From Streptomyces sannanensis (GTDB taxonomy: Bacteria > Actinomycetota > Actinomycetes > Streptomycetales > Streptomycetaceae), in assembly GCF_039536205.1 (NCBI RefSeq), contig NZ_BAAAYL010000001.1:4464001-4528000 (forward strand): 64,000 nt of DNA, given 5' to 3'. Below are positions 21,280 to 26,748 of this stretch, piece after piece (within the stretch, counting starts at the first letter, position 1; each line of letters opens with the position of its first letter). A program made the translations under genes and the position numbers. The notes below the pieces were generated by a model. The model did no database searches and had not been told where the DNA came from. It saw nothing but the letters and a program-made list of their open reading frames with translations.

Positions 21280-24200
21280 GTGAGCTCCTTCTCCATCCAG
21301 TCGGTACGGCGCCGGACCCCCGGCCCGTACCGACTGGTGCGCACTCCGCCGGAGACCGTGGATCCCCCTGTCCTGGACGCACACCAGCGCGCCGTGGTTG
21401 ACCACACCGGAGGGCCACTGCTCGTCCTCGCCGGACCCGGCACCGGCAAGACGACCACCCTGGTGGAGGCCGTCGCGGCGCAGGTCGCCCGGGGTACGCC
21501 CCCCGAGCGGATGCTCGTGCTCACCTTCAGCCGCAAGGCGGCGGTGGAGCTGCGCGACCGTATGGCCATACGGCTGGGGGGCCCGCACGGTCCCCAGGCC
21601 ACCACCTTCCACTCCTTCTGTTACGCGCTGGTCCGCGCTCACCAGGACGGCGAGCTGTTCAGCGAACCCCTCCGGCTCCTCTCCGGCCCCGAACAGGACG
21701 TCGCCGTCCGTGATCTCCTCGCCGGCCAGATCGAACTGGAACGCGAGGGCCTGGCCCGTATCGAGTGGCCCGACGAACTGCGTGCCTGTCTGACCACCCG
21801 CGGCTTCGCGGACGAGGTGCGTGCCGTGCTCGCCCGCAGCCGGGAACTGGGCCTCGCCCCCGACGCGCTCGGCGCCTTCGCGGCCCGCACCGGCCGCCCC
21901 GACTGGGCCGCGGCGGCCTCCTTCCTCGCCGAGTACCTCGACGTCCTCGACATGCAGGGCGTCCTCGACTACGCCGAACTCGTCCACCGCGCGGTCCCGC
22001 TCGCCGAGCGCGTCCCCTTCGCGTACGACGCGGTCTTCGTCGACGAGTACCAGGACACCGACCCGGCCCAGGTCCGCCTCCTCCAGGCCCTGGCGGGCCG
22101 CGGCGGCACCCTGGTCGCCTTCGGCGACCCGGACCAGTCGATCTACGCCTTCCGCGGTGCCGACGTGAACGGCATCCTCGACTTCCCGGACCGCTTCCAC
22201 CGGCCGGACGGCCGCCCGGCCCCCGTCGAGGTGCTCACCACCTCACGCCGTTCCGGAGCGGGGCTGCTGGCCGCCACCCGGCTGCTCACCCAGCGCATGC
22301 CCCTCACCCGCCTCCCCGCGGAAAAGGTCCGCGCCCACCGGGACCTCGCCGCGGTCCGGCCCGGCGGCAGGGTCGAGGTCCACACCTACCCGACCCCCGG
22401 CACCGAGCTCGACAACATCGCGGACGTCCTCCGCCGCGCCCATCTGGAAGACGGCGTGCCCTGGAACGAGATGGCCGTCCTGGTCCGCGCCGGCGGCCGT
22501 ACGATCCCCTCCGTCCGCCGCGCCCTCACCTCGGCCGGTGTCCCGGTCGACGTCGCGGGCGACGACCTCCCCCTCCGCCACGAGCCGGCGGTGGCCCCGC
22601 TGCTCACCGCCCTCCGGGCGGTCGCCACGGCCGCGACCCGCCCGGCGGAGCCCACCCCCGCGGCACCCGGCCATGCCGGTCCGGCTGCGGCCGGGCCTGG
22701 TCCCGACGCCGGCCCGGAGCCGATGTCGCGCCGCGAAGCCGGCACCGGGGAGGCCGGGGGGCTTGCCCCGCAGTTTCGGGAAGAGGGGAAACCCCCTGCT
22801 CCCGCGGCCACCCCGGACCCGGCCGACGAGCCGGACCCCGTCGAGGCCGCCCCCTGGCTCGACACCGAGACCGCCCTCTCCCTTCTCGCCTCGCCCCTCG
22901 GCGGCATGGACGCCGCCGACCTGCGCCGGCTCGGGCGGGCACTCCGGGACGAGGAGCGGGCCGCGGGGACTCGCCTGCCCCCGCCCTCGGACGAGCTGCT
23001 CGCCCGTGCCCTCGCGGAACCCGAGCGGCTGGTCGCGCACGACCCGGCGTACGCCCGGGGCGCGCAGCACCTGGGCATGGTCCTGCGCAAGGCGCGCGAG
23101 CTCCTCGAAGGGGGCGGCACCGCCGAGGAGGCCCTGTGGCAGCTCTGGGACGGCACGCCCTGGCCCGCGCGACTGGAGCGTGCGGCGCTCCGGAGCGGCG
23201 CGGCCGGCCGCAACGCCGACCGCGACCTCGACGCCGTGTGCGCGCTCTTCGACACCGCCGCCCGCGCCGAGGAGCGCGTCGGCGGCCGAGGCGCGCTGAA
23301 CTTCCTCGAGGAGCTGGACGCCCAGGACATCGCCGCGGACACGCTCAGCAAACGGGTCGTACGACAGGACGCCGTACGTCTCATGACGGCGCACCGCTCC
23401 AAGGGCCTCGAATGGCGTCTGGTCGTCGTCGCGGGCGTCCAGGAGGGTCTCTGGCCGGACCTGCGGCGCCGGGGCTCGCTCCTCGAGGCGGACCGTATCG
23501 GCCGCGACGGACTCGCCGAGCCGCTCAGCCCGGGCGCGCTGCTCGGCGAGGAGCGCCGCCTCTTCTACGTCGCCGCGACGCGCGCCCGCGACCGCCTGGT
23601 CGTCACCGCCGTGAAGGCACCGGCGGACGACGGTGACCAGCCCTCCCGCTTCCTCACGGAGCTGGGCGTCGAGCCGAAGGACGTCACGGGCCGCCCGCGA
23701 CGCCCGCTCTCGACCGCCGCGCTCGTCGCCGAACTGCGCGCGACGACGGTCGACCCCGAGGCGTCCGAGGCGCTGCGCGACGCGGCGGCGCGCCGCCTGG
23801 CGCGGCTCGCGGCGCTCGCGGACGACGAGGGCCGGCCGCTCGTACCGGCCGCGCACCCGTACCGCTGGTGGGGTCTGTACGAGCCGACCCGCAGTGCCGC
23901 CCCGCTCCGGGACCGGGACGAGCCGGTCGCGCTGTCCGGCAGCGCGCTGGACCAGCTCGCCAATGCCTGCGCGTTGCAGTGGTTCCTGGGCCGCGAGGTG
24001 AAGGCGGACGCGCCGGCGACCGCCGCGCAGGGCTTCGGCAACGTCGTGCACGTACTGGCCGACGAGGTCGCCTCGGGCCGTACCCCGGCCGATCTCGCGG
24101 TCCTCATGGAGCGCCTGGACTCGGTGTGGGACGCGCTCGCCTTCGACGCGCCCTGGAAGTCGCGGCAGGAGAAGGAGAACGCCCGCGCCGCCCTGGAACG

Positions 24201-24726
24201 CCTCCTGCGCTGGCACGTCCTGGACCGCGCGGGCCGCACCCCGGCCGCCACCGAGCACGCCTTCGACGTGACGCTGGAGGCGGGCTCGTACGAGGTGCGC
24301 ATCCGCGGCTCCATGGACCGCGTCGAGCAGGACGCGCACGGCCGGGCCTACGTCGTGGACTTCAAGACCGGCAAGGCGGCCCCCACCAGGGAGGAAGTGG
24401 CCGGTCACCCGCAGCTGGCCGTCTACCAGCTGGCGGTCCGCGAGGGCGCGGTGGACGAGGTCTTCGACGGCCGCCGCCCGGAGCCGGGCGGCGCGGAACT
24501 GGTCCATCTGCGCCAGGCGGCCGCGAAGAAGGACGGCGGCGACGCCCTCCCCAAGGTCCAGGCGCAGGAACCCCTGTCCGGCGAATGGGTCGGCGACCTG
24601 CTCGCCACGGCGGCCGGCCGGGTCCTGGACGAACGTTTCACCCCGTCCACGGGAGGCCACTGCGCCACCTGCTCCTTCCACGCGTCGTGCAGCGCGCGGC
24701 CGGAGGGCCGGCACGTCGTGGAGTGA
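21280..24726 (+). CDS. adnA: AdnA-like UvrD/RecB-family helicase-nuclease
   Basis: The 1148-residue protein joins a UvrD-type motor (Walker A AGPGTGKTT at 51-59, VFVDEYQDTD, GDPDQSIYAFRG, LMTAHRSKGLEW) to a C-terminal RecB-type nuclease (GSMDRVEQ, VVDFKTGKA). Cys897, Cys1128, Cys1131 and Cys1137 form the four-cysteine pattern of an AddB-like iron-sulfur staple. Together with adnB it should form the actinobacterial AdnAB complex that resects double-strand breaks. Residues about 455-525 are a low-complexity insertion that may contain a former intergenic repeat. The assignment to A rather than B rests on gene order recalled from mycobacteria. Unlike a compact adnAB pair, about 1.9 kb separates it from adnB. 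Confidence 0.85.
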   Translation: MSSFSIQSVRRRTPGPYRLVRTPPETVDPPVLDAHQRAVVDHTGGPLLVLAGPGTGKTTTLVEAVAAQVARGTPPERMLVLTFSRKAAVELRDRMAIRLGGPHGPQATTFHSFCYALVRAHQDGELFSEPLRLLSGPEQDVAVRDLLAGQIELEREGLARIEWPDELRACLTTRGFADEVRAVLARSRELGLAPDALGAFAARTGRPDWAAAASFLAEYLDVLDMQGVLDYAELVHRAVPLAERVPFAYDAVFVDEYQDTDPAQVRLLQALAGRGGTLVAFGDPDQSIYAFRGADVNGILDFPDRFHRPDGRPAPVEVLTTSRRSGAGLLAATRLLTQRMPLTRLPAEKVRAHRDLAAVRPGGRVEVHTYPTPGTELDNIADVLRRAHLEDGVPWNEMAVLVRAGGRTIPSVRRALTSAGVPVDVAGDDLPLRHEPAVAPLLTALRAVATAATRPAEPTPAAPGHAGPAAAGPGPDAGPEPMSRREAGTGEAGGLAPQFREEGKPPAPAATPDPADEPDPVEAAPWLDTETALSLLASPLGGMDAADLRRLGRALRDEERAAGTRLPPPSDELLARALAEPERLVAHDPAYARGAQHLGMVLRKARELLEGGGTAEEALWQLWDGTPWPARLERAALRSGAAGRNADRDLDAVCALFDTAARAEERVGGRGALNFLEELDAQDIAADTLSKRVVRQDAVRLMTAHRSKGLEWRLVVVAGVQEGLWPDLRRRGSLLEADRIGRDGLAEPLSPGALLGEERRLFYVAATRARDRLVVTAVKAPADDGDQPSRFLTELGVEPKDVTGRPRRPLSTAALVAELRATTVDPEASEALRDAAARRLARLAALADDEGRPLVPAAHPYRWWGLYEPTRSAAPLRDRDEPVALSGSALDQLANACALQWFLGREVKADAPATAAQGFGNVVHVLADEVASGRTPADLAVLMERLDSVWDALAFDAPWKSRQEKENARAALERLLRWHVLDRAGRTPAATEHAFDVTLEAGSYEVRIRGSMDRVEQDAHGRAYVVDFKTGKAAPTREEVAGHPQLAVYQLAVREGAVDEVFDGRRPEPGGAELVHLRQAAAKKDGGDALPKVQAQEPLSGEWVGDLLATAAGRVLDERFTPSTGGHCATCSFHASCSARPEGRHVVE

Positions 24727-24819: not shown

Positions 24820-25608
24820 GTGACGAACCGTAAGTTCCTGGTCGCGGCGACTGTCTGCGCGACCGCGCTGGCCGGCCTGACCGGCTGCAGCAGTGACAAG
24901 GGCAAGGACGCGGCGGACGACAAGAAGCCGAGCGCGTCGCAGGAGTCCAAGGCACCGGCGGACCCGTTCGCGGGCATGACCGCGGACCAGATAGCCGACA
25001 AGGCGCTGGACACGACGAAGGCCGCCGACTCGCTCAAGGCGATGGGCATCGCCAGGTCGGACAAGAAGGAGCTGCAGTTCGACGTCTCCGTCAGCAAGCA
25101 GGGCGACTGCCAGGGCAAGCTGACCGACGCGGGCGCCACGGCCGACCTCGTCTCGGTCGACAAGGCCGTGTACATCAAGGGCGACAGCAAGTTCTGGGAG
25201 CAGACGGGCAAGGAGGACGGTTCCTCCCCGGAGGAGACCGCCGCCATGGTCGAGCTCCTCAAGGGCCGCTGGCTCAAGGTCCCCGCCGAGGACAACTCGG
25301 CGGAGGACGACCTGGGCGCGATCTGTGACACGGACACCCTGTTCGAGGAGGCCGACCAGGCCAAGACCGGCCTGACCAAGGGGCAGAATACCGAGGTCAA
25401 CGGCCAGTCCGCGGTGACGCTGACCAAGAAGGACGGCGACGAGACCACCACCCTCCACGTGGCCACCGAGGGCGAGCCGTACCTTCTGAAGGTCACCGTC
25501 GAGGGCGGCAAGGATCCGGGCGAGGCGTCCTTCAGCGACTTCAACAAGCCGATCACCGTCACGGCCCCGCCGGCCGACCAGGTGATGGACCCGACGAAGC
25601 TGGGCTGA
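24820..25608 (+). CDS. Lipoprotein, LppX/LprAFG-like
   Basis: A 262-residue exported lipoprotein: signal peptide FLVAATVCATALAGLTGC with the lipobox LTGC (Cys at about residue 21), then a charged linker and a beta-rich domain (KELQFDVSVSKQGDCQGKL, ADLVSVDKAVYIKGDSKFW) like the LppX/LprG fold that carries lipids in actinobacteria. GTG 24820 follows AAGGAG. It stands between adnA and adnB, but nothing links it to DNA repair; it may be an inserted gene. Confidence 0.78.
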   Translation: MTNRKFLVAATVCATALAGLTGCSSDKGKDAADDKKPSASQESKAPADPFAGMTADQIADKALDTTKAADSLKAMGIARSDKKELQFDVSVSKQGDCQGKLTDAGATADLVSVDKAVYIKGDSKFWEQTGKEDGSSPEETAAMVELLKGRWLKVPAEDNSAEDDLGAICDTDTLFEEADQAKTGLTKGQNTEVNGQSAVTLTKKDGDETTTLHVATEGEPYLLKVTVEGGKDPGEASFSDFNKPITVTAPPADQVMDPTKLG

Positions 25609-25650
25609 CACCCACGCGCAGCGGGGGCCGTTGATTGTCGGCGGTCCCCG

Positions 25651-25806
25651 TCAACCTCTTCGAGGTGTCATCCTGCATCACCGATCCCGAGCAGCTCAAG
25701 GAGCTCCTCGGGATTCCGTTCACCCCGGAGCAGACGGCCTGTATCGCCGCGCCGCCCCGCAGGTCGGTGGCCGGAGCCGGGTCCGGGTCCGGGAAGACAA
25801 CGGTTG
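25651..25806 (+). repeat. Duplicated adnB 5' end, left copy
   Basis: This 156-bp segment matches 26593-26748 (the adnB start region, including about 14 bases upstream of its GTG) at roughly 85-90% identity. Differences include loss of 6 bases around the PAPQV codons and a 6-base tandem copy of GGTCCG in the Walker A codons. The match ends at the last base before the toxin stop codon. Confidence 0.9.
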
Positions 25807-25856
25807 TCAGGCGCCGGGCGCCGCGACAGCGAGTCCGACTCCCTCGGCGGCCTTGA
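25665..25856 (+). pseudogene. Truncated adnB head fragment
   Basis: GTG 25665 opens a 63-codon frame beginning (M)SSCITDPEQLKELLG, as in intact adnB. It keeps a Walker A-like AGAGSGSGKTT, but homology stops at about 25806 and the frame runs into the 3' end of the convergent toxin gene. It cannot make a motor protein. It most likely marks one side of the event that brought in the toxin-antitoxin pair. Confidence 0.85.
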
Positions 25857-26214
25857 GCAGTCGCTGGTCGTATGTGACGAATGTGAGTGGCTCTGCGCCG
25901 GGCTGCCCGGCCAGCAGTTGCGCGGTCGCCAGGTGAATCGCGTCGAGTGAGCGCAGGTGCGGGTCCTGATAGGCGGCGGCCGTGGAACGTACGGCCTGAT
26001 CGATCTCCAGGCGGTACAGCCTGGTCAGCGCACCGGGCACGCCTGCCAGAGCCTGGGGGGCGGACCGCCGAAGGGCGCGCGGCACTTCCACCTCGACGAG
26101 CGCGGAGGAGACCAGCGCTTCGTCCGGCCGCTCATTGATCCAGACGGCCAGTTCGGCGCCGGCGTGCTCCCGACGGACCATCTTCACGACGGCCGCCGAG
26201 TCGAGATAGATCAC
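25807..26214 (-). CDS. PIN-domain toxin (VapC family)
   Basis: A 135-residue PIN-domain RNase: Asp5 in MIYLDSAAVVKM, Glu41/Glu43 in VSSALVEVEV, Asp91 in LRSLDAIHLATA and Asp116 in TYDQRLLKAA give the acidic metal site of VapC toxins, which cleave tRNA or rRNA. It starts at GTG in a GTGA overlap with the antitoxin stop. Its own stop codon directly abuts the truncated adnB fragment, so the cassette boundary is precise. Confidence 0.9.
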   Translation of the reverse strand: MIYLDSAAVVKMVRREHAGAELAVWINERPDEALVSSALVEVEVPRALRRSAPQALAGVPGALTRLYRLEIDQAVRSTAAAYQDPHLRSLDAIHLATAQLLAGQPGAEPLTFVTYDQRLLKAAEGVGLAVAAPGA

Positions 26215-26489
26215 CAGCGCTCCTCGTCACGCATTGCGGAGAGCTCCGCCGCCGAATCGATTGCGGGGTCGCCCAGCACGGGCGGCAGCACGACCGGGCC
26301 GCTCACGGTCGGTGCGACGGCCCGACCCTCGGCGACGAGGCGGTCGAGCAGGGACTGGGTGCTGGTGATGGGTACGAGCCGGGCCACGGCTGTTCCGCTC
26401 ACGGTCACCTCCAAGGACTCGCCGCGCTGCACCCGGGCGAGCACGGCGCTGGTGTTCTGATTGAGCTCGCGTACAGGGATGCGGTCCAT
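26211..26489 (-). CDS. Phd/YefM-family antitoxin
   Basis: A 92-residue antitoxin, MDRIPVRELNQNTSAVL..., with the Phd-type DNA-binding and dimerising N-terminus (VRELNQNTSAVLARVQRGE, TVSGTAVARLVPI) and a variable C-terminal tail (SAAELSAMRDEERW) for toxin neutralisation. A GTG at 26495 is an alternative start; neither has a clear ribosome site. A perfect palindrome lies just upstream, as expected for autorepression. Pairing a Phd-type antitoxin with a PIN toxin is common in actinobacteria. Confidence 0.87.
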   Translation of the reverse strand: MDRIPVRELNQNTSAVLARVQRGESLEVTVSGTAVARLVPITSTQSLLDRLVAEGRAVAPTVSGPVVLPPVLGDPAIDSAAELSAMRDEERW

Positions 26490-26497
26490 GCTCACAG

Positions 26498-26518
26498 CGT
26501 AGAACGCGGTGTTCTACG
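26498..26518 (-). promoter_or_regulatory. Likely operator of the toxin-antitoxin operon
   Basis: Perfect 8-bp arms CGTAGAAC (26498-26505) and GTTCTACG (26511-26518) around GCGGT lie 3 to 9 bases upstream of the antitoxin start. Position and symmetry fit an autorepression site for the antitoxin or toxin-antitoxin complex. Confidence 0.6.
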
Positions 26519-26592
26519 TCGGTAGCGGTCCTTCGCTCGAACGAGTGACCGGTCGCACGCGGTCGACCGGCCTCCGCTGTCAGCGACTCCCA

Positions 26593-26748
26593 TTAACCTC
26601 TTTGGGGTGTCCGCCCGCATCACCGATCCCGAGCAACTCAAGGAGCTCCTCGGGATTCCGTTCACCCCGGAGCAGACGGCCTGCATTACCGCGCCGCCCG
26701 CCCCGCAGGTCATCGTGGCCGGAGCCGGGTCCGGGAAGACGACGGTGA
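26593..26748 (+). repeat. Duplicated adnB 5' end, right (functional) copy
   Basis: Partner of the segment at 25651-25806. Here the copy continues into the full adnB frame. Between the two copies lies only the toxin-antitoxin cassette and its control region. Confidence 0.9.

Follow-up and report, generated by a model that had tools for sequence, protein, structure and literature searches.

The stretch of Streptomyces sannanensis DNA analysed here (the window, 64,000 nucleotides) carries, between adnA and adnB, a lipoprotein gene, a truncated copy of the adnB head and a VapBC-like toxin-antitoxin pair, and we propose, at somewhat below even odds (a probability of roughly 0.45), that this arrangement arose when one-sided recombination stacked a vapBC-adnB allele onto a lipoprotein allele and, in doing so, duplicated the adnB head. 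Both types of allele occur in the family, and no close donor or recipient was found.

The locus and its direct repeat

The two genes and the features between them lie as follows, in window coordinates:

21280 to 24726, forward strand: adnA, with UvrD-like helicase and PD-(D/E)XK nuclease domains (Pfam), open reading frame of 1148 aa
24820 to 25608, forward strand: lipoprotein gene, between adnA and the adnB stub
25636 to 25804, forward strand: left repeat copy (adnB stub), with promoter, start codon at 25665 and adnB codons 1-47 with indels
25807 to 26214, reverse strand: vapC-like PIN-domain toxin, 135 aa
26211 to 26489, reverse strand: Phd/YefM-type antitoxin, overlapping the toxin start, reading frame open from 26495
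26498 to 26518, no strand: perfect 8-nt inverted repeat, CGTAGAAC-N5-GTTCTACG, upstream of the antitoxin
26578 to 26746, forward strand: right repeat copy, with unbroken promoter motif and the first adnB codons
26607 to 30326, forward strand: adnB, with UvrD-like helicase and PD-(D/E)XK nuclease domains (Pfam), open reading frame of 1239 aa

The identity of the flanking genes was supported by domain content and by structural matches. Each product pairs a UvrD-type motor with a nuclease domain, the features by which AdnA and AdnB are recognised, and the best solved matches were chain A of PDB 7sjr/6ppj for adnA and chain B of 6ppu/6ppr for adnB, structures that we take to be mycobacterial AdnAB. 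The enzyme has been reported as essential in Streptomyces, going by a title cited in PMC5869714. The lipoprotein gene distantly resembles the SCO4651 family, scoring 42.7 bits with NCBIfam NF053532, where the cut-off is 65; its reading frame is open from 24727, and from the lipobox (LTGC) we infer a start at 24820.

The toxin-antitoxin pair is flanked by a direct repeat of 169 bp (25636-25804 and 26578-26746, spacing 942) that contains the adnB promoter and the start and Walker A codons. Without gaps the copies are 83% identical; a gapped alignment of 158 columns gives 86.1% (E 1.5e-48 in a comparison with the whole window, far beyond chance). The left boundary of the repeat is the first element of the adnB promoter motif, and on the right it reaches codon 47, past the Walker A codons. 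In the stub, homology stops at 25804, 2 bases short of the complemented stop codon of vapC (25807-25809). Because the indels of the stub in the gapped alignment (-5, +1, -2 and +6) sum to zero, the frame is kept, and the open reading frame continues antisense to vapC as far as a stop at 25856. The original prediction had placed a toxin-antitoxin cassette between two adnB 5' ends, the left one truncated and the right one belonging to a whole gene; the repeat on either side of the pair and the right adnB, open for 1239 aa, bear this out. It was right that the adnB head is duplicated, but it began the copy at 25651, about 15 bases late since the promoter is included, and its end, at the base before the toxin stop codon, was nearly correct.

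The VapBC-like character of the pair, also foreseen, is confirmed by the toxin's match to the PIN family PF01850 (E 7e-13, above the cut-off) and by the antitoxin's matches to Phd/YefM, with PF02604 just over its cut-off (E 4e-7; 30.2 bits against 29.8) and TIGR01552 above its own. The acidic positions D5, E41, E43, D91 and D116 of the toxin are invariant in an alignment of 6 proteins that includes the window's. The antitoxin gene lies upstream of the toxin gene and overlaps it at 26211-26214, and the inverted repeat before it is likely to be an autoregulatory operator; its core, TAGAAC...GTTCTA, is also found in Streptomyces sp. NRRL F-5135 (hereafter F-5135), ISL-94, G505 and G488. The pair looks intact, given the invariant PIN acidic positions and the perfect inverted repeat, and its sequence suggests that it works. 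PADLOC assigned no family to toxin or antitoxin, and a single-sequence search at E 0.001 found no solved relative of VapC.

A TGTC-type element, exactly 8 nt and then TAnnnT precede adnB in 131 of 133 unique other heads if the final four bases of the first element may vary; under a stricter definition of the motif, 92 of the 133 fit. The right copy has TGTCAGCG-N8-TAACCT, with the -10 element at 26594-26599, and the left copy TGTCGGCG-N8-CAACCT, with the -10 element at 25652-25657 and its first base changed. The left promoter, which is oriented antisense into vapC, is probably dead, as its -10 element has lost an otherwise near-invariant base. The third base of the -10 element, an A in both copies, recurs in 3 of the 133 other heads, two of which are those of G505 and G488. 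A scan for consensus promoters and terminators found nothing.

The adnA-adnB interval in related genomes

To place the window among its relatives, we took a census of 218 genomes with an adnB start, the window excluded, in which 210 intervals were readable. The comparison used one genome per species, and the genome samples of the separate searches overlap. The census comprised 187 genomes of the window's genus, 30 of the genus g20 and F-5135, which was found by its VapC. Relatives of the lipoprotein gene, VapBC and the pair seen in the genome G662 were sought in all intervals. Genomes were chosen by the similarity of their adnA/adnB DNA to the window's or because they carry the lipoprotein gene, and this bias means that the proportions are not population frequencies: 156 of the 210 intervals held none of the genes sought, 37 held one lipoprotein gene, 13 held two and 3 held vapBC, while a single one (G662) held an unrelated YefM-RelE pair. 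Most of the gene-free intervals (139 of 156) were shorter than 230 nt and the other 17 measured 241-693 nt; 13 of these 17 were read by eye for open reading frames, and none looked like a gene. Alleles free of the cassette, which the original prediction had proposed to look for, are thus common, with 206 of the 210 intervals lacking a toxin-antitoxin pair of the two kinds sought, in counts that cover the adnA-adnB interval alone.

A toxin scan of GTDB genomes returned at least 7 relatives, at least 2 of them in Streptomyces. In F-5135 (L062, NZ_JOHR01000021.1), as in G505 and G488 of the genus g20, the order is adnA-vapBC-adnB. These three loci share with the window the same pair (VapC 77-81% and VapB 76-84% identical), the same slot and the same orientation; none of the three has a lipoprotein gene or an adnB stub there. 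G505 and G488 match the query unbroken from the toxin into adnB, among the best 150 places in 375 family genomes, and they are 2 of 35 g20 genomes. The stop codon of adnA is separated from that of the toxin gene by 12 nt in G505 and by 10 nt in G488; from the vapB ATG to adnB there are 117 nt in the window, 118 in G505, 117 in G488 and 178 in F-5135.

The pair is rare. VapC was found at E 1e-20 or better in 3 of 392 genomes of the genus, the window's included; the other two proteins are 45-47% identical, and their 3.4-kb loci contain no adnA or adnB match above 45% identity. At E 1e-60, the cassette DNA was found in the window's genome only, among 238 genomes of the genus (a sample overlapping the 392). 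In the vapBC tree, where the fork is open, the nearest pair is that of ISL-94 (85%), and the adnAB-linked pairs are not united. The ISL-94 pair sits elsewhere, since its 12.4-kb locus (L061) has no match to adnA or adnB; it lies near an open reading frame whose product, by its sequence, is presumably MazG-like. The interval of G662 (L170), 679 nt long, encodes a Phd/YefM antitoxin and a RelE-like toxin of the ParE family (Pfam) in the direction of adnA and adnB.

Judged by these contents, the interval is a variable slot in Streptomycetaceae, and the window combines two of its allele types as a hybrid. Its stub comes directly after the lipoprotein gene, the place that adnB takes in lipoprotein alleles.

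Other variants were encountered among the loci. Two tandem, diverged lipoprotein genes precede adnB in L076, L078, L082, L083, L084, L086, L088, L089, L093, L098, L099, L108 (the same genome as L149), L141, L142 and L173; where the locus includes adnA, they sit between adnA and adnB. In L206/L087 (G192:C40, around 1526300), adnA and a lipoprotein gene are followed by the end of adnB only, from about residue 982, and the first 600 adnB residues have no match above 50% identity in that genome; the truncation may be an artefact, as the assembly has a completeness of 95% and a contamination of 6%.

Age and kinship of the two adnB heads

Within the first 81 coding bases, 6 positions distinguish the left copy from the right. 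The head of G650 (L186) differs from the left copy at 5 and from the right at 3, and the median other head at 11 and 9, respectively; the copies are closer to each other than average heads of different species are, not closer than the nearest ones. Since six differences in 81 lie within the between-species range, the duplication is probably old, in keeping with the earlier view that the event was not very recent. The two copies may well represent an old duplication of one lineage's adnB head, though their sequences do not allow us to say so firmly.

The copies share 6 rare coding states, a number reached by 2.8% of other pairs; L202 and L006 each have 7 such states in common with the left copy and 6 with the right. 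ATT at codon 17, common to both copies, occurs in 5 of 136 others, and each copy has a private change found in none of the 136 (CAA at codon 10 in the right copy, the first base of the TGC codon 4 in the left). The highest identity of the right copy is to L107 (88%), compared with 87% to the left copy. Outside the indel zone the copies differ by 16 transitions and 3 transversions, and in the upstream part 11 of 12 differences are transitions; among 3131 other head pairs with 9-15 upstream differences, transitions made up 39% on average and no pair had one transversion or fewer. This excess is no proof of a recent common source, as G030 (L004), a lipoprotein allele, shows it likewise against both copies. 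Of the 6 nearest upstream regions listed for each copy, all 6 belong to lipoprotein alleles in the case of the left copy, and 5 do in the case of the right.

The original prediction had left room for a left copy closer to a foreign adnB. Our comparison does not show it to be foreign: in a short tree (107 rows, 145 columns) the two copies are sisters, with a weak support of 78, yet in the first 81 coding bases each is nearer to G650 than to the other copy. A clearly foreign left copy was rejected, as none of the 133-136 unique other heads was much closer to it than the right copy.

Origin of the hybrid

Under the preferred reading, a fragment with a ready-made vapBC-adnB allele would have entered a lipoprotein-type chromosome and paired by homology at the adnB promoter and head on one side, and its other end, at the vapC stop codon, would have joined codon 47 of the resident adnB without extended homology. 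The join would duplicate about 169 bp of adnB, the right copy keeping promoter and gene and the left copy turning into a stub. One-sided recombination of this kind would account for three features: the duplication of a long piece of adnB instead of a few bases, the position of the stub behind the lipoprotein gene, where other alleles have adnB itself, and a distance from vapBC to adnB equal to that in G505 and G488. Both the one-sided mechanism and the direction of transfer are our interpretation of this layout. In favour of the reading we also count the last 500 nt of adnA, which are nearer to lipoprotein carriers, the lipoprotein alleles among the nearest upstream regions of both copies, and the weak sister relation of the copies. 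Against it stand the vapBC tree, in which the adnAB-linked pairs do not group together, the lipoprotein-type adnA end of F-5135, the frequent change of nearest relative along the locus, the closeness of both heads to G650 and the rare coding states that they share with L202 and L006. Neither G505 nor G488 has anything corresponding to the stub beside the vapC stop codon, and F-5135 has at most a 16-nt match. CGG or ACGG occurs near the vapC stop codon in G505 and F-5135 and in adnB, and is too short to test as microhomology.

The original prediction had described an insertion that duplicated its target. Its placement of the cassette between copies of the head stands; a simple insertion peculiar to this strain is weakened, because the slot holds the same vapBC in F-5135, G505 and G488. 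The alternative it offered, that the cassette arrived on DNA from a related strain, may hold. Insertion by a transposon was set aside as unlikely: transposon target duplications are usually far shorter than 169 bp, and no transposase or integrase was found among the six open reading frames scanned against Pfam. A cassette moved in trans would need no transposase of its own.

A different history, which we regard as possible though on the unlikely side, has vapBC enter a lipoprotein-type adnA-adnB locus from a different site, for example the one it occupies in ISL-94, with break-and-repair duplicating the 169 bp and the vapBC of F-5135, G505 and G488 arriving separately. Such an independent insertion would fit the nearest vapBC being off-site, in ISL-94, the weak sister relation of copies whose differences are mostly transitions, and the unrelated pair that also reached the slot in G662. 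However, the same rare pair would have to land repeatedly in the same slot and orientation, and the near-equal vapB-adnB distances of the window, G505 and G488 also speak against it. A shared vapBC-adnB joint is not proven, since homology upstream of vapB extends to window base 26552 in ISL-94 too and, in the last 28 nt before the right repeat, only 14 positions match G505 and 13 match G488.

The transfer could also have run the other way, a lipoprotein allele (adnA 3' end, lipoprotein gene and adnB head) being imported into a vapBC-type chromosome through homology in adnA and an illegitimate join before the vapC stop codon, so that the left copy would be the donor's head. We consider this distinctly unlikely. 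The last 500 nt of adnA are indeed nearer to lipoprotein carriers than to other genomes (82.1 against 79.2% and 84.9 against 81.7% in two end segments; 23 against 71 genomes) and parts farther upstream are not (86.2 against 87.6, 77.9 against 79.4 and 85.7 against 85.4%), and F-5135, which has vapBC without a lipoprotein gene, is the nearest relative in some stretches. Yet F-5135 has the same adnA profile without a lipoprotein gene, so this tract is not peculiar to the window, and the window's values are reached by 8 and 7 of 69 genomes without the gene in the two end segments; the weak sister relation of the left copy to the right also argues against a donor's head. The nearest relative along the locus changes every few hundred bases. 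When adnA and adnB were compared with 19 relatives in 250-nt stretches, F-5135 was the closest in some stretches and among the most distant in others; sliding comparisons for local import tracts around the slot gave no clear result and no position for the homologous side of the proposed join.

That the stacking predates the window's lineage, F-5135 having once had the lipoprotein gene and stub and then lost both, seems very unlikely to us. Besides the lipoprotein-type adnA end of F-5135, it draws on the 92-nt spacer between adnA and vapC in that genome, where 15 of 16 positions match the adnB Walker A codons. With the right copy, 0 of 500 shuffles reached the score of this match; with the left copy, 7 of 500 did. 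The match may be a remnant of the stub or chance: it is short, G+C-rich and was found after looking. The same spacer resembles the lipoprotein gene no better than chance (112 of 500 shuffles), and the short gaps that G505 and G488 have from the adnA stop codon to that of the toxin gene (12 and 10 nt) also tell against this history.

Meaning of the slot and known systems

The duplication gives adnB its own head and promoter, so that a toxin-antitoxin pair can settle in the adnAB locus without breaking the enzyme. The occurrence of lipoprotein genes and of two toxin-antitoxin pairs unrelated to each other points to the adnA-adnB interval as a variable slot, a view that lends itself to testing throughout Streptomyces. 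Far more speculatively, and in our view highly unlikely, toxin-antitoxin pairs would have docked in this slot again and again because they guard AdnAB, the repair enzyme. If this were true, inhibition of AdnAB, for example by a phage, could free the toxin, whose pair lies back to back with the adnB promoter; vapBC (in the window, F-5135 and a second genus) and the YefM-RelE pair of G662 would be independent recruitments, and the stub promoter would have been shut down on account of its antisense firing into the gene of the toxin. A toxin-antitoxin pair linked to AdnAB function would then be a new kind of guard system. Streptomyces VapBC is reportedly covered in published work, PMC4963828 being one example, and among the titles listed in our literature searches none concerned toxin-antitoxin pairs at adnAB.

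The proposed join resembles homology-facilitated illegitimate recombination, in which a homologous anchor on one side is combined with a non-homologous join on the other, as described in PMC3240628. The same process has been proposed in PMC5361080 for effector-immunity arrays, where older genes are left beside new modules. Unlike in those accounts (PMC3240628, PMC5361080), the event here is deduced from an old product, with no donor known and an unproven joint.

The promoter of the right copy and of 131 of the 133 other heads shares, in relaxed form and with exact spacing, the P1/RecA-NDp consensus tTGTCRgtg-8 nt-TannnT given in PMC5656591; that promoter was described in mycobacteria, whereas here it is a prediction from the motif. 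With type II toxin-antitoxin systems of PIN and Phd/YefM proteins, the window's pair has in common the domains, the antitoxin-toxin order, the gene overlap and the upstream palindrome. It differs from them in its place, beside adnB and its damage-type promoter, and its function is putative. All parts of the locus are of known kinds, and their hybrid is an unusual variant.
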